Source: Streptomyces sp. WMMC500 (GTDB lineage Bacteria > Actinomycetota > Actinomycetes > Streptomycetales > Streptomycetaceae). Taken from it: a DNA stretch of 64,000 nucleotides. Position numbers and translations under genes: made by a program. Below, piece after piece: positions 34,893-41,689 of this stretch. The notes under the pieces were generated by a model. The model saw only the letters and a program-made list of their open reading frames with translations. It was not told the origin of the DNA and did not search any database. Location of the stretch: contig NZ_CP114905.1 of assembly GCF_027497195.1 (NCBI RefSeq), forward strand, positions 7,480,001 through 7,544,000. The letters run 5' to 3'. How positions within the stretch are numbered: position 1 is the first letter of the stretch; the number at the start of each line of letters is the position of its first letter.

Positions 34893-35564
34893 TCAGCGGG
34901 CCGCCGTGCGCCACGGCGGCCCCACTTCGGCGGGCTCGCCGCTGAACACCACGTTGCCGCGACGGAGTTCGTGCACCACCGTCGCCGCGGCCGCAAGGCC
35001 GGGCGGCAGACTCTGCTCCGCGACGACGACGGTGGCGGCGAGCCCGCCGAGCAGTTCGTGCGTACGGGCCGCCACCGCGGCCGACATCCCCTGGCCCGGC
35101 TCGTCGAGCAGGACGAGCCGGGCGGGGGACAGCAGCGCGCGGGAGACGGCCAGCATCCGCTGCTCGCCGCCCGAGAGCGTGCCCGCGCGGTGCGTCAGCA
35201 GCCGCGCCAGTTCCGGATACGCGGCCAGCGCGGGGCCGGTGTCGCCGTCGCGGGCGGCGAGCCGCAGGTTCTCCGCCACGGTCAGCGAGCCGAACACCGC
35301 GCGCACCTCCGGAGTCAGCGACAGCCCGCGGCGGGCACGGGCGTACGCGGGCATCCGCGTGACGTCCTCCCCGCGCCACACCACGCGCCCCGCGGCCAGC
35401 GGCACGGTCCCGGCGAGGGCGCGCAGCGCGGTCGTCCGGCCGGAGCCGTTGCGGCCCAGCAGCACCGTGAGCCGGCCGGCGGGCACGGGGAGGTCGACGC
35501 CGTGCATGGCCTCCAGCGGGCCGTAGCGGACGCGGGCGCGGTGCAGCGCGATCTCGACGCTCAC
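34893..35564 (-). CDS. livF: LivF-like branched-chain amino acid ABC ATPase, Walker A Lys replaced by Arg
   Basis: A 223-residue ABC ATPase of the LivF type. Its Walker A reads GRNGSGRTT, with Arg in place of the invariant Lys, confirmed in the DNA around 35436-35462. The signature TLSGGEQRM, Walker B LVLLDEP and the VVVAEQ segment are intact. Such a substitution usually abolishes or weakens ATP hydrolysis, so the partner LivG domain may do most of the work, although its own signature is also unusual. The GTG start at 35564 overlaps the stop of the LivHMG fusion by 4 bases, the last gene of that operon. Confidence 0.9.
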   Translation of the reverse strand: MSVEIALHRARVRYGPLEAMHGVDLPVPAGRLTVLLGRNGSGRTTALRALAGTVPLAAGRVVWRGEDVTRMPAYARARRGLSLTPEVRAVFGSLTVAENLRLAARDGDTGPALAAYPELARLLTHRAGTLSGGEQRMLAVSRALLSPARLVLLDEPGQGMSAAVAARTHELLGGLAATVVVAEQSLPPGLAAAATVVHELRRGNVVFSGEPAEVGPPWRTAAR

Positions 35565-38500
35565 GGCGCCTCCGCGGCTGCCGTGCCCGTCGCCGCGAGC
35601 ACGTGGGCGGCGGTGCCGGAGGCGACGATGCGGCCGGCGGCCATCGCGTAGACGGTGTCGGCGAGTTCGCCGACGAGTTCGAGGTCGTGCTCGACCACGA
35701 GCAGGGCCGTGCCGTCGGCGGCGAGCGCACGCAGGACGCGGACGAGCGCGGCGGTTTCGGCGAGGTCGAGGCCGGCGGCGGGCTCGTCGAGCAGCAGCAC
35801 GCGGGGGCCGCCGGCGAGGGCGCGGCCGAGTTCGACCCGGCGGAGGACGCCGGTGGGCAGGTCCTCGGCCGGCGCGTCGCGCAGCGGCCCGTCGAGGCCG
35901 AGGAGCCGCAGCACGGGGTCGGTGGCCGCGGGGTCGCGGACGCGGCCCTGCTCGGCGCCGACGCCGACGTTCTCGGCGACGGTGAGGGTGGGGAAGACGG
36001 CGGGCTGCTGAAACGTCCGCGCCAGCCCGAGCCGGTTGCGCGCGTGCGCGCTGCGCCGGGTCACGTCCCGCCCGTCGAGCACGACCCGCCCGGCCCGCGG
36101 CCTGAGGGTCCCGGCGAGACAGTGGAACAGGGTGGACTTCCCGGCCCCGTTGGGCCCGACGAGGGCGGTGACCTGCCCGGCGGCGACCCGGAGGTCGACG
36201 CCGGAGAGCACGGAGAAGTCCCCGTACGAAACGGAGACGCCGCGCGCGACGAGCGGATCGCCTGCGGCGGGCACCGCGGACGGCCGCGCCCGGCGCGCAC
36301 CGCGGGGCGGCCTGCGGCCGGCGGCGCGGGGGTCGGTGGCGGACCGGTTGCCGGTATGCGGTGGTGGTGGTGGTGCGGCTTCGGCGGCGGGGGGTGCGGG
36401 TGCGTGTGGGCGGTCAGGGTTGCGTGCGTGGTCCGGGTCTTCGTGGGTCGGCCTGCGGCCGGCGGCGGGGGTGTCCGGGGTGGAGTGGGCGTCGGTATGC
36501 GGCGGATGTGCGGCTTGGTCGGTGGGGGGCGCGGGTGCGTCGCGGCGGTCAGGGGTGCGTGCGTGGTCCGGCTCTCCGCGGGTCGGCCTGCGGCCGGCGG
36601 CGCGGGTGTCCGGGTCGGTCTGGGTGCCGGTGTGCGCCGGTGGCGCGGGCGCGTCGCGGCGGTCAGGGTTGCGTGCGTGGTCCGGGTCTCCGCGGGTCGG
36701 CCTGCGGCCGGCGGCGCGGGTGTCCGGGTCGGTCTGGGTGCCGGTGTGCGCCGGTGGCGCGGGCGCGTCGCGGCGGTCAGGGTTGCGTGCGGCGTCCGGG
36801 TCTCCGCTGGCCGGCCTGCGGCCGGCGGCCCGGACGTCCGAGTCGGGCTCGGCACCGCCGACCCGTTGCGGTGCTTCGCCCGTGCTCGGCTCGGGCGTGT
36901 TCGGCACGGCGCTCGTCGGCCCCCGGCCGGGGGCCCGTGCGCCTTCGGCGCCGGACCGGCCGACGGGCGAGGGCCGCGCGGCTTCGCCCGCGGCCGGGCC
37001 GGGCGTGTCCCTTCCCCCGGGGTCCTCCGCGGCCCCCGCGGTCGCCCTGGAAGCCAGCTCGGCGGTGGCGTCCCTCGGCCACAGGGCTTCCGCCGGGCCG
37101 GGCTCCGCCGTGCCTTCCGCGCCGCTCTTTCCGCGCCTCGCCGCAGGCGCCGGGCTGTCCGTGTCCTGCGCCGGCCGGGGCCCGGCGACCGTGCGTGCCA
37201 GGAGCGGCCCGGTTCCGGCCGCCCCCGCCGGAGGCGCCACGCGTGTCGTCCCGACCGCCCGGGGCGCTTGTGCCAGGTGCGTGCGCAGCCGCAGGCCCCG
37301 CGGTGTCAGGCCCGGCCGCCGGAGGCGGCGGGACGCCGCGCGGTGGAGGGCCTCGTACAGGCCGCCCGGGAAGCGGCCCAGCAGGACCGCCAGGACGCCG
37401 ATGACCGCCGCCGCCATCCCGCCGCGGGTGCCCGCGTCCAGCCCCACCAGCAGCGCCGACGCCAGCAGCGCGCCCAGCATGCTGTCCGCGCCGACCACGA
37501 CCACCGCCGCGAACCACAGCAGACTCCGCACCGGGTCGAAGGCGTTGGGGTCGAAGGCGCGGGCGCCCATGGCCAGCATGCCGCCGCCCAGGGCCGCCAG
37601 GGCGGCGCCCGCCGCGAAGGCGGCGACCTTCAGCGACGGCACCGGCACCCCCGCCGCCGCGGCGCCCGACTCGTGGTCCCGCATCGCCGCCAGCGCGCGG
37701 CCCGGGCGCCCCCGGCGCAGGGCGTGGGCCGCCGTCAGCGCGCCGGCGAGCAGCACGAGTTCGAGGACGTAGAACGCCCGGTCCCCGGTGAAGCCCGCGG
37801 GGCGGCCCAGCGTCAGGCCCGAGGTCGCGTACGGCTGCGCGAAGACGAAGCGGCTCACCGCCACCCCCACCGCCAGCGTGACCAGCGCCAGCGCCAGGCC
37901 CTGCCGGCGGATCGCCGGGTACCCCGTGAGCAGCCCCAGCGGCGCCACCAGCAGCACCGCGACGCCGAGCGCCACCAGCTCCGGCAGCTCGGGCAGCCCC
38001 GGGAACCGCCCCGCCGCCAGCAGCGCCGTGAACAGTGCTCCCAGCCCGGCGTACGCCGCCTGCCCCAGCGAGACCTGGCCGCCGCGCCCCGTGACGACCA
38101 CCAGCGACAGCAGCACCACCGCCAGCGCCGGCACCTGGACCGACGTGGTCAGGTCGGAGCCCGCGAAGCCCAGCGGCAGCAGGAACAGCACCCCGGCGAC
38201 CAGCCACGTCCGCCCGTCGCCGGCCGCCGAGTCCAGCGTGTCGGCCGGTACCCGCAGGAAGCCGTCGCCGGAGCCCGTCCAGAGCCGCGGCAGGGCCAGC
38301 GCCGCCACCAGCAGCAGCACCGCGAAGAGGTTCGCGCCCAGCGCCTGCACCAACTGCTCGCCCCAGCCCCCCGGATGGAGCCGGGTCAACTGCGCCTGGC
38401 CCACGCCGACCGCCAGCGCCACCGCCACGACCGCCGGCAGGCTCCGCAGCCCGGCCGCGACCGCGACCCCGATGACGGCCATCACCAGCAGCGGCAGCCC

Positions 38501-39139
38501 GTACGGGTCGAGGCGGTACTCCGGTGCCAGCAGCACGCCCGTGACGCCCGCGGTGAACGTGCCGAACGCCCAGCCGGCGTCGGCGACCCGGTCGGCGTCG
38601 ATGCCGCTGAGTGCGGCGAGCCGCCGGTTGTCGACCACCGCGCGCAGCTCCCGCCCGAACCGGGTCCACCGCGTGACCGCCGCGACCGCGCCCGCCAGCG
38701 CCACCGCCGTACCGAGCTGCACCCACGGGTCGGACGGCAGCAGTTCGGGCGCGTCCGTGCGCGCGCCCGTGCCCCACAGGAGCCCCGCCGCGCCCATCAG
38801 CAGCACGAACACCCCGAGCGACGCCACCAGCGCCTGCGCGCCGCCGGCGCCGGCCCCGCCCGACTGGAGCACCGACAGCGGCCGGAAGACGAACCGCCCC
38901 ATGAGCAGCCCGATGCCGGGGGCGACGACGAGCAGGCTGACGGCCGCCGCCGCCCACAGCGGCCAGTCCCAGCCGACGGCGAGCTGGCGCATGACGTACG
39001 CGGTGAACATCGCGACCGCGCCGTGCGCCAGGTTGAGCACGCCGGTCGCGCGGTACGTGACGACGACGCCGATGCCGGAGAGCGCCGCGGCGCTGCCCAC
39101 CGCGAGCCCGGCCAGCGTCAGTTCGTAGGTGAGCGACAC
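35561..39139 (-). CDS. LivH-LivM-LivG fusion: ABC permease-permease-ATPase with repeat linker
   Basis: A single 1192-residue reading frame combining three normally separate subunits. Residues about 1-300 are a LivH permease (ATGVLNLAHGAVAMFTAYVM). Residues about 315-605 are a LivM permease (GQVSLGQAAYAGLGALFTAL). Residues about 605-955 are a low-complexity Pro/Arg/Ala/Asp linker with five copies of an AAGRRP-centred repeat. Residues about 958-1192 are a LivG ATPase with Walker A GPNGAGKST, LARTFQQPAVF and Walker B LLLDEP. The LivG signature is odd (LPTGVLRRVELG instead of LSYGQQRR). There is no internal stop or frame change. The GTG at 39139 lies 1 base from the upstream gene's stop, and the end overlaps livF. 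Fusion of both permeases with one ATPase is rare; a substrate cannot be named. Confidence 0.9.
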   Translation of the reverse strand: MSLTYELTLAGLAVGSAAALSGIGVVVTYRATGVLNLAHGAVAMFTAYVMRQLAVGWDWPLWAAAAVSLLVVAPGIGLLMGRFVFRPLSVLQSGGAGAGGAQALVASLGVFVLLMGAAGLLWGTGARTDAPELLPSDPWVQLGTAVALAGAVAAVTRWTRFGRELRAVVDNRRLAALSGIDADRVADAGWAFGTFTAGVTGVLLAPEYRLDPYGLPLLVMAVIGVAVAAGLRSLPAVVAVALAVGVGQAQLTRLHPGGWGEQLVQALGANLFAVLLLVAALALPRLWTGSGDGFLRVPADTLDSAAGDGRTWLVAGVLFLLPLGFAGSDLTTSVQVPALAVVLLSLVVVTGRGGQVSLGQAAYAGLGALFTALLAAGRFPGLPELPELVALGVAVLLVAPLGLLTGYPAIRRQGLALALVTLAVGVAVSRFVFAQPYATSGLTLGRPAGFTGDRAFYVLELVLLAGALTAAHALRRGRPGRALAAMRDHESGAAAAGVPVPSLKVAAFAAGAALAALGGGMLAMGARAFDPNAFDPVRSLLWFAAVVVVGADSMLGALLASALLVGLDAGTRGGMAAAVIGVLAVLLGRFPGGLYEALHRAASRRLRRPGLTPRGLRLRTHLAQAPRAVGTTRVAPPAGAAGTGPLLARTVAGPRPAQDTDSPAPAARRGKSGAEGTAEPGPAEALWPRDATAELASRATAGAAEDPGGRDTPGPAAGEAARPSPVGRSGAEGARAPGRGPTSAVPNTPEPSTGEAPQRVGGAEPDSDVRAAGRRPASGDPDAARNPDRRDAPAPPAHTGTQTDPDTRAAGRRPTRGDPDHARNPDRRDAPAPPAHTGTQTDPDTRAAGRRPTRGEPDHARTPDRRDAPAPPTDQAAHPPHTDAHSTPDTPAAGRRPTHEDPDHARNPDRPHAPAPPAAEAAPPPPPHTGNRSATDPRAAGRRPPRGARRARPSAVPAAGDPLVARGVSVSYGDFSVLSGVDLRVAAGQVTALVGPNGAGKSTLFHCLAGTLRPRAGRVVLDGRDVTRRSAHARNRLGLARTFQQPAVFPTLTVAENVGVGAEQGRVRDPAATDPVLRLLGLDGPLRDAPAEDLPTGVLRRVELGRALAGGPRVLLLDEPAAGLDLAETAALVRVLRALAADGTALLVVEHDLELVGELADTVYAMAAGRIVASGTAAHVLAATGTAAAEAP
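36309..36830 (-). repeat. tandem repeats encoding the LivM-LivG linker
   Basis: Five copies of a unit containing GGCCTGCGGCCGGCGG begin at 36309, 36450, 36585, 36699 and 36813 (periods 141, 135, 114 and 114 bp, all multiples of three). The copies at 36585-36698 and 36699-36812 are nearly identical, implying a recent duplication. The encoded unit is about 38 residues, with AAGRRPTRGDPDHARNPDRR at its centre. Confidence 0.88.
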
Positions 39140-39140
39140 C

Positions 39141-39677
39141 TCACGCCTCCGGCGCGGCGCCGGGCGCGGGGCCCGGCTCGCAGACCGGGCACGGGGTCAA
39201 CTCCCGCTCCGCACCCGCCGCTTCCGCCGGATCCGCGACCGGTACGGCGCCGGGCTTGCCGCCGACGAGGGGGCAGCCGGGGCGGTGGTAGAGCGTGCCG
39301 CCGGGCACCGCCAGGTACGGGGCGGCCCCGCCGGACTCCGGCCCGGGCGCGGGTCCCGGCGAGGCTTCGGCGTGAGACCCGTCCGCGTCGCCGTCCCTGT
39401 CAGCGGCCACGAGCAGCCCGTACAACTCCTCCACCCGCGCCGCCGCAAGACCCTGGTCGCCGCGCGACAGCAGCACTGCCCCGGCGACGATCAGCGCCGC
39501 CCCCGGGATCGTGCAGGACGCCAGGTACGGGATCTGCCGCTCGGCGAACCGCTCGCCCGACACCCCGTACCAGCCGACGGCGCACAGCACGGCCCCGGCG
39601 GCGAGCGCGGCCCAACTGCCCCACCGCAGGGCCATGGCCGTCAGCGAGTGCCCGCGCGCCGGGCCGGTTTGCCGCAT
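39141..39677 (-). CDS. small membrane protein with Ada-like Cys/His motif
   Basis: A 178-residue protein with two membrane segments (about 15-38 and 47-68). Its soluble C-terminal tail contains LYHRPGCPLVGGKPG and, after about 20 residues, ELTPCPVCEPG. The C...C-x2-C spacing with a preceding YHRPGC resembles the zinc-binding N-domain of Ada-type proteins, so metal or thiol binding is likely; the role is unknown. ATG 39677 follows AGGGGG 4-5 bases away; GTG 39713 is an alternative. It is the first gene of the liv operon, with one base separating it from the fusion gene. Confidence 0.75.
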   Translation of the reverse strand: MRQTGPARGHSLTAMALRWGSWAALAAGAVLCAVGWYGVSGERFAERQIPYLASCTIPGAALIVAGAVLLSRGDQGLAAARVEELYGLLVAADRDGDADGSHAEASPGPAPGPESGGAAPYLAVPGGTLYHRPGCPLVGGKPGAVPVADPAEAAGAERELTPCPVCEPGPAPGAAPEA

Positions 39678-39798
39678 TATGCCCCCTGTGCATGTCGGCC
39701 GCTTGGGATGCACTATGCCGTGTGTGGTTGTACTACGCAGTAGACCGCACGGATCGGCGGGACACTTGACGCATGACGACGTTCAGGGGTGAGGACGG

Positions 39799-40353
39799 AT
39801 GACCCGACGAGCACGCACGCGCAGCGCCGCGTGGCTGGCCGCGGCGGTACTGCTCACGGGGCTGGGCGCGGCCGGCTGCGGAGACGAGGGCGGCGGGGCG
39901 GACACGCCGGACAAAGCGCCGAGCGCGCCGGCGTCGGAGAGCAGCCCCGCCTCGGAGACGAGCGAGGGGGCGGACGACGGCGCCGGCGGCGCGGAACCGG
40001 CCGACCCGGCCGCGGCGGAGAAGGAGATCGAGGAGAACTGGACGACGTTCTTCTCGCCGGACTCCGACGCCGACGCGAAGCTGGCGGTCCTGGAGGACGG
40101 CGAGGCGATGCGGCCGCTGATGGTCGCCTTCTCCGACGACGAGCGCTGGAAGCAGGTCGCCGCCGAGGTCACGGCGGTGGAGTTCGAGTCCGCCGAGGAG
40201 GCGGAGGTGACGTACGACATCGCGCTGAAGGGCGAGACGGCCGTGCCCGGCGCCACGGGCATCTCGGTGCTGCAGGACGGCACCTGGAAGGTCTCGAAGA
40301 AGGCGATCTGCACCCTCGTGGAGATGAGCGGGTCGCCGGGCCCCGGGTGCTGA
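39799..40353 (+). CDS. MTB12-like lipoprotein
   Basis: A 184-residue lipoprotein. The signal peptide ends in the lipobox LGAAGC, so it should be tethered to the outer face of the membrane. A Ser/Glu/Pro-rich spacer (about 30-70) leads to a small domain (NWTTFFSPDSDADAKLAVLE ... GTWKVSKKAICTLV) that matches the low-molecular-weight antigen MTB12-like fold; its ligand is unknown. ATG 39799 has GAGGA upstream. It is divergent from the liv permease operon and lies one base before the binding-protein gene, so the three are probably one system. Confidence 0.85.
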   Translation: MTRRARTRSAAWLAAAVLLTGLGAAGCGDEGGGADTPDKAPSAPASESSPASETSEGADDGAGGAEPADPAAAEKEIEENWTTFFSPDSDADAKLAVLEDGEAMRPLMVAFSDDERWKQVAAEVTAVEFESAEEAEVTYDIALKGETAVPGATGISVLQDGTWKVSKKAICTLVEMSGSPGPGC

Positions 40354-40354
40354 G

Positions 40355-41689
40355 ATGAGCCGGTCGGGGGGTGCCGCGCTGGCGGCGGCGGTGCTGGTGC
40401 TGCTGACCGCCGCCTGCGGCAGCCGGGTGCCCGAGAGCGAGTTCGCCGAGCGGTCCGCCGTGCCCGAGGGCGCCCGGCCCGGCGGCGCCGCGCCCTCGGG
40501 CGAGGCGCGCGGTGAGCCGGTCAGGGTCGGCGTCATCGCCAGCGAGACCAGCCCGGTGGGCGACGCGTTCAGCGGGCCGCAGGACGGCGCGCGGGCCTAC
40601 TTCGAGGCGCTGAACGCGCGCGGCGGGGTGAACGGCCGCCCCGTCGAGGTCGTCACCTGCGACGACGGCGGCAGCGGCCTGGGCAACAGCGACTGCGTGC
40701 GCGAACTGGTGCTGAAGGAGAAGGTGTTCGCGCTCGTCGCCACGACCTCGCTGAACTACGCCGGCGCCCCGCAGGTCAGCGACGCCGGCGTGCCGGACAT
40801 CGGCGGCCAGCCGATCGGGGCCGCGTACGAGACGTACCCGCACCTGTACGGCATCTACGGCAGCCGCGCCCCGCGCACCGGCGGCGAGGCCGGCTGGGAC
40901 GGCGACCTGTACGGCGGCACCGAGGTGTACCGCTACTTCAAGCGGGAGCACGGCGCCCGCACCGCCGCCGTCGTCTCGTACAACCAGGCGGCCTCGGCCT
41001 CGTACGCGCGCAGCGTGACCAGCGGTCTGGAGGCCGAGGGCTACGACGTCGTCACCGCGCAGGTCGACTTCTCGCTGCCGAACTTCGACGCGGTCGCCGC
41101 CGACCTGCGCGCCCGCGACGTCGATCTGGTCTTCGACGCCGTCGACACCGGCGGCAACGCCAAGCTGTGCAAGGCGCTCGACGAGGCCGGCGTGGAGCTG
41201 ACCGCGAAGGTCACCAACGTGCAGAACTGGAACTCCGACGTGGCGGAGGACTACGCGGACGCCGAGCGCTGCCGCAACTCCCTCTGGGTCACCGGCTCCA
41301 GCCGCAACTACGAGGACGACGGCGACCCGGCGGTCAGGGCGTTCCGGGACGGCATGGACCGCTACGCGGACACGGACACCCGCTCGCAGTGGCAACTGGA
41401 GGGCTGGGCCGCCGCGATGTGGTTCGCGGACGCGGCGAAGTCCTGCGGGGCGGAGCTGACGCGCGGGTGCGTCGAGGACTTCATGACGCGCGCCGAGCCG
41501 TACGACGCCGGCGGGCTGCTGCTGCCCGTACGCTTCGAGCAGTTGCCGCAGCCGCCGAAGACCCGGCCCACGTGCGTGTCGGCGGCGCGCTGGCAGGACG
41601 ACGCGAACGACGGCGCGGGCGGCTGGGTCAGCCAGGGCGAGATGACGGAGAACTGCTTCACGGTGCCGCAGCTCCCGTACCGGCCCTGA
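40355..41689 (+). CDS. LivK-type ABC substrate-binding lipoprotein
   Basis: A 444-residue periplasmic-binding-protein-like lipoprotein (Peripla_BP_6, leucine-binding family). The lipobox is LTAACG. The fold starts RVGVIASETSPVGDAFSGPQ and contains YFEALNARGGVNGRPVEVVT and LFALVATTSLNYAG-type strands. Extra cysteines near the C-terminus (CGAEL, GCVEDF, TCVSAA, NCF) may form disulfides. It is expected to deliver substrate to the divergently encoded LivHMG/LivF transporter. ATG 40355 follows the MTB12-like stop by one base. Confidence 0.9.
   Translation: MSRSGGAALAAAVLVLLTAACGSRVPESEFAERSAVPEGARPGGAAPSGEARGEPVRVGVIASETSPVGDAFSGPQDGARAYFEALNARGGVNGRPVEVVTCDDGGSGLGNSDCVRELVLKEKVFALVATTSLNYAGAPQVSDAGVPDIGGQPIGAAYETYPHLYGIYGSRAPRTGGEAGWDGDLYGGTEVYRYFKREHGARTAAVVSYNQAASASYARSVTSGLEAEGYDVVTAQVDFSLPNFDAVAADLRARDVDLVFDAVDTGGNAKLCKALDEAGVELTAKVTNVQNWNSDVAEDYADAERCRNSLWVTGSSRNYEDDGDPAVRAFRDGMDRYADTDTRSQWQLEGWAAAMWFADAAKSCGAELTRGCVEDFMTRAEPYDAGGLLLPVRFEQLPQPPKTRPTCVSAARWQDDANDGAGGWVSQGEMTENCFTVPQLPYRP

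Follow-up and report, generated by a model that had tools for sequence, protein, structure and literature searches.

A LivH–LivM–LivG fusion with a hypervariable linker and a predicted degenerate ATP site in a putative HAAT-type ABC importer of Streptomyces

Results

A single frame encodes two permeases and an ATPase

The 64,000-nucleotide stretch of Streptomyces sp. WMMC500 analysed here (contig NZ_CP114905.1, positions 7,480,001 to 7,544,000; hereafter the window) carries the locus of a putative ABC importer in which a LivH-like permease, a LivM-like permease, a long linker and a LivG-like ATPase follow one another, in that order, within one protein of 1192 residues (Table 1). The initial annotation of the sequence had proposed this arrangement, and it is borne out by the uninterrupted reading frame and by Pfam, which places two BPD_transp_2 stretches and one ABC_tran domain on the protein. 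The family matches lie at G000:C1 7518381-7519115 for the LivH-like part, which is helical in the structure model, and at G000:C1 7517421-7518143 for the LivM-like part, G000 being this genome. An AlphaFold model of the fused protein (49 sequences) has a mean predicted local distance difference test score (pLDDT) of 64.5, with values of ~92 over ATPase residues 961-1180; a search with the permease part yielded no solved relative with a meaningful E-value. The LivF-like ATPase encoded by the overlapping gene is the only free ATPase of the set, as annotated, and both the overlap and the transporter context also stand. Of 72 relatives, 69 have an NTGA stop/start overlap where LivF is expected to begin, and the count rises to 71 with the inclusion of two whose expected start is shifted.

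Table 1. Features of the fused-transporter locus in the window
Feature	Position	Strand	Basis or description
LivF-like free ATPase, 223 residues	34893-35564	-	Pfam ABC_tran
Four-base overlap GTGA, fused-gene stop and LivF start	35561..35564	-	Sequence
LivF Walker A GRNGSGRTT, residues 37-45	35430..35456	-	Sequence; Arg43 replaces Lys
Whole fused gene, 1192 residues	35561-39139	-	Single uninterrupted frame, GTG start at 39139, stop 35561-35563
LivH-like permease domain, residues 1-290	38270..39139	-	Pfam BPD_transp_2, two stretches
LivM-like permease domain, residues 291-600	37340..38269	-	Pfam BPD_transp_2, residues 333-573; structure model
Linker, residues 601-962 (362 residues)	36254..37339	-	Composition, pLDDT, hypervariability
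Tandem array, 114 bp x 2.8 copies, 38 residues per unit	36528..36846	-	Tandem Repeats Finder
LivG-like ATPase domain, residues 963-1192	35564..36253	-	Pfam ABC_tran, residues 978-1121
LivG Walker A GPNGAGKST, residues 995-1003	36131..36157	-	Sequence; Lys present
LivG signature LPTGVLRR, residues 1094-1101	35837..35860	-	Sequence; non-canonical
Accessory membrane protein gene, directly upstream of fused gene	39141-39713	-	Present in 80/80 loci
Small lipoprotein-like gene, divergent, upstream of binding-protein gene	39799-40353	+	Present in 80/80 loci
LivK-like substrate-binding lipoprotein gene, divergent	40355-41689	+	Pfam Peripla_BP_6; present in 80/80 loci

The guanine-plus-cytosine (GC) content of third codon positions is.98,.98 and.95 in the three domains but falls in the linker, to.88 in one half and.84 in the other. 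The repeat-bearing half has almost as much GC at first positions as at third (.832 versus.838), and in one sub-window, from residue 901, the third position has the lowest GC of the three. Because third-position GC drops there, codon bias alone backs the linker as coding sequence weakly.

The linker is held in frame while its length and sequence drift

A scan of species genomes confirmed 292 relatives, of which the best 80 loci, all titled Streptomyces and as a sample skewed to near relatives, were analysed. Both the permease and the LivG ends are present in 73 of the 80, and in 72 of these 73 they lie in one open frame. In the remaining locus, L043, the frame is open through the linker and the LivG Walker A and breaks later, inside the LivG domain. 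Six of the other seven loci are cut short where a contig ends within the linker region. In the seventh, L041, LivG and LivF are missing, homology to two relatives ends just past the permease and the segment beyond sits elsewhere in these two; this locus is either rearranged or misassembled.

The window's linker fits its initial description as a low-complexity, repeat-bearing segment: it is repeat-rich and ~80% GC, it is rich in Ala, Pro, Arg, Gly, Thr and Asp over residues 611-955, and it contains a tandem array. Model confidence is low from residue ~627 to 956, with a pLDDT of ~33 over residues 630-950, and the linker is predicted to be disordered. Linkers of the 72 relatives range from 56 to 338 residues (median 118, 59 distinct lengths), all of them shorter than that of the window, and the median sharing of 4-letter words is.043 between linkers versus.616 between permeases. 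Tandem arrays are present in 27 of the 72, and repeat growth happens repeatedly at this position in different species; large units occur in the linkers of L101 (144 bp), L033 (159/177 bp) and L091 (153 bp). Array periods are divisible by three in 46 of 51 arrays, a figure that is partly circular in that the linkers were chosen for an open frame. The same circularity touches the count of stops, which is 0 in frame versus 22 to 95 in the other frames of the 72 linkers, and the fair figure is the 72 of 73 given above. Taken together, these data portray the linker as a disordered tether in which hardly anything beyond the reading frame is conserved.

A fusion that spans such a sequence could be a sequencing or assembly artefact, with two genes merged by a frameshift or stop overlooked within a GC-rich repeat, and the initial annotation had named this as an outcome that would overturn it. 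The repeat content and GC richness of the linker would favour such an error, as would the six contigs that end in the linker region, the homology of L041 that stops just past the permease, and two further copies that are interrupted in the linker itself, L133 by a frameshift and L135 by an in-frame TAG. An error of this kind is difficult to reconcile with a single frame across 72 of 73 relatives that have 59 distinct linker lengths, with the agreement between the near relatives L035 and L036 in separate assemblies, or with the other five frames, each of which holds a stop in 19 to 56 of the 72 linkers. Comparison thus rules out a frameshift or stop as the cause of the fusion, the survey of relatives leads us to reject an artefact for the family, and we regard this explanation as extremely improbable. 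LivG and LivF are otherwise readable in L133 and L135, and the breaks in these two linkers could be errors, decay or natural un-fusing.

A single frame could also give rise to two products, with internal initiation or proteolysis of the linker freeing LivG and leaving a complex of ordinary composition. A disordered segment rich in Pro, Ala and Arg is a plausible protease target, and LivG, where present, occupies a separate frame in 10 of 10 loci of the sister family. However, a scripted test of the window sequence found no Shine-Dalgarno-like start ahead of the LivG ATPase, and a frame that stays open in 72 of 73 relatives would be needless for a split product. We consider a split product rather unlikely.

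The fusion is conserved and already catalogued

A search of a protein database with the permease part scored 8000 candidates, of which 1715 matched at E <= 0.001. The 120 top-ranked matches are 695 to 1192 residues long with a permease identity of mostly 72-76%, and all but two of the 120 listed also carry ABC_tran, the exceptions being P0038, which is a partial record, and P0078. Several of those listed bear the public name 'branched-chain amino acid ABC transporter permease/ATP-binding protein'. Whole-genome samples searched at E <= 1e-60 gave matches to the permease part in 14 of 37 genomes of the same genus and, in a set of 147 genomes from the order, in 44 that belong to this genus. Matches with short open frames, and a few others, were read individually, and open-frame length served as the sole guide for the remainder. 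Among those read, L138 and L139 are fused, L132, L136 and L140 are truncated by contig ends, and L137 is interrupted by a frameshift in its LivH part.

The LivH–LivM–LivG fusion is therefore real, conserved and already in databases under a fusion name, and by itself it is ordinary for actinobacteria, contrary to the initial view that the architecture was unfamiliar among described BCAA transporters. In the survey of such fusions that had been suggested, 72 of 73 Streptomyces loci with both ends are fused, and LivG is not fused to LivHM in the relatives sampled outside Streptomyces. The fixed stoichiometry that fusion was suggested to impose is of small consequence, as two permease and two ATPase domains come together in ABC importers in any case.

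One of two composite ATP sites is predicted to be degenerate

Paired ABC ATPases bind each ATP between one subunit's Walker A and the other's signature. Site 1, formed by the LivG Walker A and the LivF signature LSGGEQ, is canonical: the LivG Walker A Lys is present in 73 of 73 relatives (including L043 read in the correct frame), the LivG Walker A, Walker B and H-loop His are fixed in the 72-73 readable loci, and the LivF signature, LSGGEQRM, is identical in 72 of 72. Site 2 consists of the LivF Walker A and the LivG signature; in the former an Arg stands in place of the Lys in 72 of 72 relatives, the latter reads L[PS]TG in 73 of 73, and the LivF H-loop position is Gln in 72 of 72. Because the Arg-bearing Walker A and the L[PS]TG signature face each other, site 2 is predicted to be degenerate, with a changed Walker A and a changed opposing signature at one site while the other is canonical. 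From these motifs we infer that site 2 may be catalytically dead. The initial annotation made no mention of a degenerate ATP site. Two separate-gene Liv systems of the same genome, taken as a control, have a LivF with Lys and a LivG with LPYGEQ or LPYGLQ, and in a pattern test the 30 best of 150 ABC matches in the genome all had a Lys Walker A and none an Arg.

Human ABCG5/G8 shows a similar pattern, with signature changes paired with a Walker A Lys-to-Arg substitution in one degenerate composite site built from two ATPases, according to a review (PMC7756269); that transporter is eukaryotic and lies outside the importer families, and the likeness is in motif pattern alone. Uneven ATP sites also have a precedent in importers, because nucleotide was modelled in DppF in E. 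coli DppBCDF with ATP-gamma-S, and the same source describes DppD and DppF as both able to bind and hydrolyse ATP once activated (PMC12136057). DppABCDF is likewise an importer with two different ATPases but belongs to a different transporter family. Neither a degenerate LivF/LivG site nor a LivH–LivM–LivG fusion is described in the titles and abstract openings of the open-licence literature searched, nor is either described for this family in the consulted portions of PMC2821768, PMC3983516, PMC10973024, PMC12136057 and PMC7756269. The phthalate transporter PatDABC was considered as a possible described fusion; the consulted portions of two reviews (PMC3983516, PMC10973024) give its components separate roles or none.

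Permease fusion and signature change appear to precede LivG fusion

In the sister family, 10 of 10 loci from 8 genomes have LivH and LivM in one frame with LivG not fused, and the same is true of 18 of 18 loci from other families of the class, which were fetched out of 33 matching genomes. Every readable LivG of the clade across the class has an L[PS]TG signature. Outside the order, all 17 loci in which LivF could be read retain its Walker A Lys, as do L124, L126 and L134. The LivHM-fused loci L123-L127, L131, L134 and L141-L158 are like the window's system in belonging to the same permease clade, in the L[PS]TG signature and, in most, in having the accessory membrane gene, and unlike it in having a separate LivG and, except for L123, L125, L127 and L131, a LivF with Lys.

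A quick IQ-TREE tree of the permease part (42 rows), with branch support from the SH-aLRT test, places the LivF Walker A Arg at a single origin in a 17-row clade (SH-aLRT 100) made up of the Streptomyces rows together with L123, L125, L127 and L131. Fusion of LivG likewise has a single origin, in a 13-row clade (SH-aLRT 100) nested within the Arg clade. Read from this tree, the order of events would be fusion of the permeases, alteration of the LivG signature, loss of the LivF Walker A Lys and finally fusion of LivG. In L123 the LivHM stop and the LivG start overlap in the sequence ATGA, and the LivHM stop forms ATGA or GTGA in 7 of 7 loci inspected; with the stop already overlapping the next start, fusion of LivG needed little beyond stop loss.

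Three sister-family loci (L128, L129 and L130) have LivHM in one frame and only one ATPase gene found nearby, which has a Lys Walker A and an LSGG signature. The motor of these systems is possibly homodimeric.

The same genome contains a second fusion (G000:C1 365605-368292, equal to L002 703-3390, minus strand), an 895-residue paralog in which LivH, LivM and a LivF-like ATPase form one chain and a LivG-like ATPase gene adjoins. It resembles the window's system in combining a LivH–LivM–ATPase chain with a second, free ATPase gene, but here the LivF-like ATPase is fused and the LivG-like one free, with a short linker and a Lys in both Walker A motifs. A search with this paralog returned 3363 matches, all 120 listed of which carry both domains, and the genera among the matches listed include Actinomadura, Nonomuraea and Streptosporangium; permease–ATPase fusions of this other clade also speak against an unknown architecture. 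Because the second fusion in the genome carries a LivF-like ATPase, attachment of an ATPase to LivHM seems to have happened on two or more occasions.

Transporter class and neighbouring genes

Two BPD_transp_2 domains, LivG- and LivF-type ABC_tran ATPases and an adjoining Peripla_BP_6 gene are the components of a HAAT-type system, and in these the locus is like E. coli LivHMGF/LivJK and cyanobacterial UrtABCDE. It differs from them in that a single chain combines H, M and G, that two further small proteins are conserved, that the LivF Walker A has an Arg and the LivG signature reads L[PS]TG, and that the ATPases score far below the NCBIfam cut-offs. Among NCBIfam models, both ATPases match a urea-transporter ATPase best (UrtD, UrtE), and LivF ranks second for the free ATPase; the scores fall short of the cut-offs for the fused ATPase (UrtD 148.7 versus 304.1, LivG 133 versus 362) and for the free ATPase (UrtE 144.2 versus 285.8, LivF 104.5 versus 441). 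The model of the binding protein (mean pLDDT 72) matches HAAT binders of leucine, aromatic acids, urea and amides among the 50 matches listed, and its PDB relatives by sequence are distant. Because the ATPases score under the cut-offs and the binding-protein matches span many substrates, the locus is best classed as a putative HAAT-type importer and not as a LivHMGF equivalog; the branched-chain amino acid substrate initially assigned to it is unproven.

The LivK-like gene is divergent, as had been annotated, but it is not the immediate neighbour of the fusion, since two conserved small genes lie between them. The first, for the accessory membrane protein, was also detected in 13 of 18 distant loci, those from other families of the class. 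Its product ends in a conserved H-R-x2-C ... C-P-x-C tail (alignment of 25) that looks metal-binding and may be Ada-like; Pfam gave no family above cut-off for it, with a weak DUF6233 match in 20 of 25 (best E 6.3e-05). The second encodes the small lipoprotein-like protein, which has two invariant cysteines near its C-terminus (alignment of 22) and no Pfam family above cut-off. A PDB search gave no convincing relative of either protein. The Der and CtaD genes adjoin the locus in 69 of 80 loci each.

The company that the fused gene keeps bears on whether the transporter is decaying, with the lost Walker A Lys and altered signature as marks of a remnant. Such a view could draw on the degenerate site, on the patchy presence in 14 of 37 same-genus genomes and on the four interrupted copies (L043, L133, L135 and L137). 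Decay would not, however, be expected to leave the LivG Walker A, Walker B and H-loop His and the LivF signature and Walker B Asp-Glu fixed in 72-73 readable loci, to keep the Arg itself invariant, to preserve a permease identity of mostly 72-76% among the 120 relatives listed, or to retain the binding-protein, lipoprotein and membrane-protein genes in 80 of 80 loci. We judge decay to be very unlikely.

Discussion

We think it probable that the locus encodes a HAAT-type importer that runs mainly on one ATP site and carries its LivG on a disordered leash. It would be a vertically inherited, Liv/Urt-like ABC importer of Streptomyces in which a single polypeptide, presumably intact in the cell, supplies both membrane halves together with a LivG-like ATPase at the end of the long leash, and this ATPase would pair with the LivF-like ATPase from the overlapping gene. 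Site 1, with the LivG Walker A, Walker B and His facing the LivF LSGGEQ, would hydrolyse ATP to drive what is expected to be import, whereas site 2, with the LivF Arg Walker A and H-loop Gln facing the LivG L[PS]TG, would bind ATP weakly or statically and may act as a hinge, as proposed for other ABC transporters with a degenerate site. The linker would need only flexibility and a preserved frame, leaving its length and letters free to drift and to grow by repeat expansion.

Several observations weigh against this interpretation. The Walker B Asp-Glu of LivF is intact in all 72 relatives, whereas many degenerate sites lose it, loss of the catalytic Glu being common although not universal. The two separate-gene Liv systems examined in this genome also have a Gln at the LivF H-loop, and therefore the asymmetry is partly general to the family. 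In 17 of 17 distant relatives an L[PS]TG signature is combined with a LivF Lys, and because the two coexist the signature may still work; nor need a Walker A Lys-to-Arg change abolish hydrolysis. The interruptions of the linker in L133 and L135, and elsewhere in L043 and L137, count on the same side. On the evolutionary side, the search query was itself LivHM-fused and so favours LivHM-fused relatives, the 80 best of 292 loci form the skewed sample described above, and the tree was built quickly, its distant rows having long branches.

Some of these points would fit equally well with an importer that effectively uses two sites, in which Arg substitutes for Lys with little effect, L[PS]TG is a functional signature and the fusion is neutral. 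The 17 distant loci show that L[PS]TG is compatible with a canonical Walker A, and the Walker B Glu of LivF is kept. Set against this are the single origin of the Arg and its retention in all 17 sampled rows of the clade, together with the uniform Lys Walker A of the 30 best ABC matches of the genome. A fully two-site importer seems to us an unlikely, though not a negligible, alternative to an importer that runs mainly on one site.

A more specific history can be offered tentatively for the importer with one main catalytic site, and we hold it to be possible rather than probable. In a lineage with a single catalytic site, the LivG signature would have been altered and then the LivF Lys lost, and LivG would have been tethered last, in the Streptomyces ancestor, with the leash offsetting a weaker ATP-driven pairing of the two ATPases.

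In summary, the novelty of this system lies in its predicted degenerate second site, in the age of that site relative to the fusion and in the unconstrained tether, rather than in the fusion as such. The hypervariable in-frame linker suggests that a tether between permease and ATPase can be under little constraint. Degenerate ATP sites have been described mainly for ABC exporters, and an importer lineage with a traceable series of steps, in which the permeases were fused, the second site apparently degraded and the ATPase tethered, would offer a natural series in which to study the purpose of the second ATP site.

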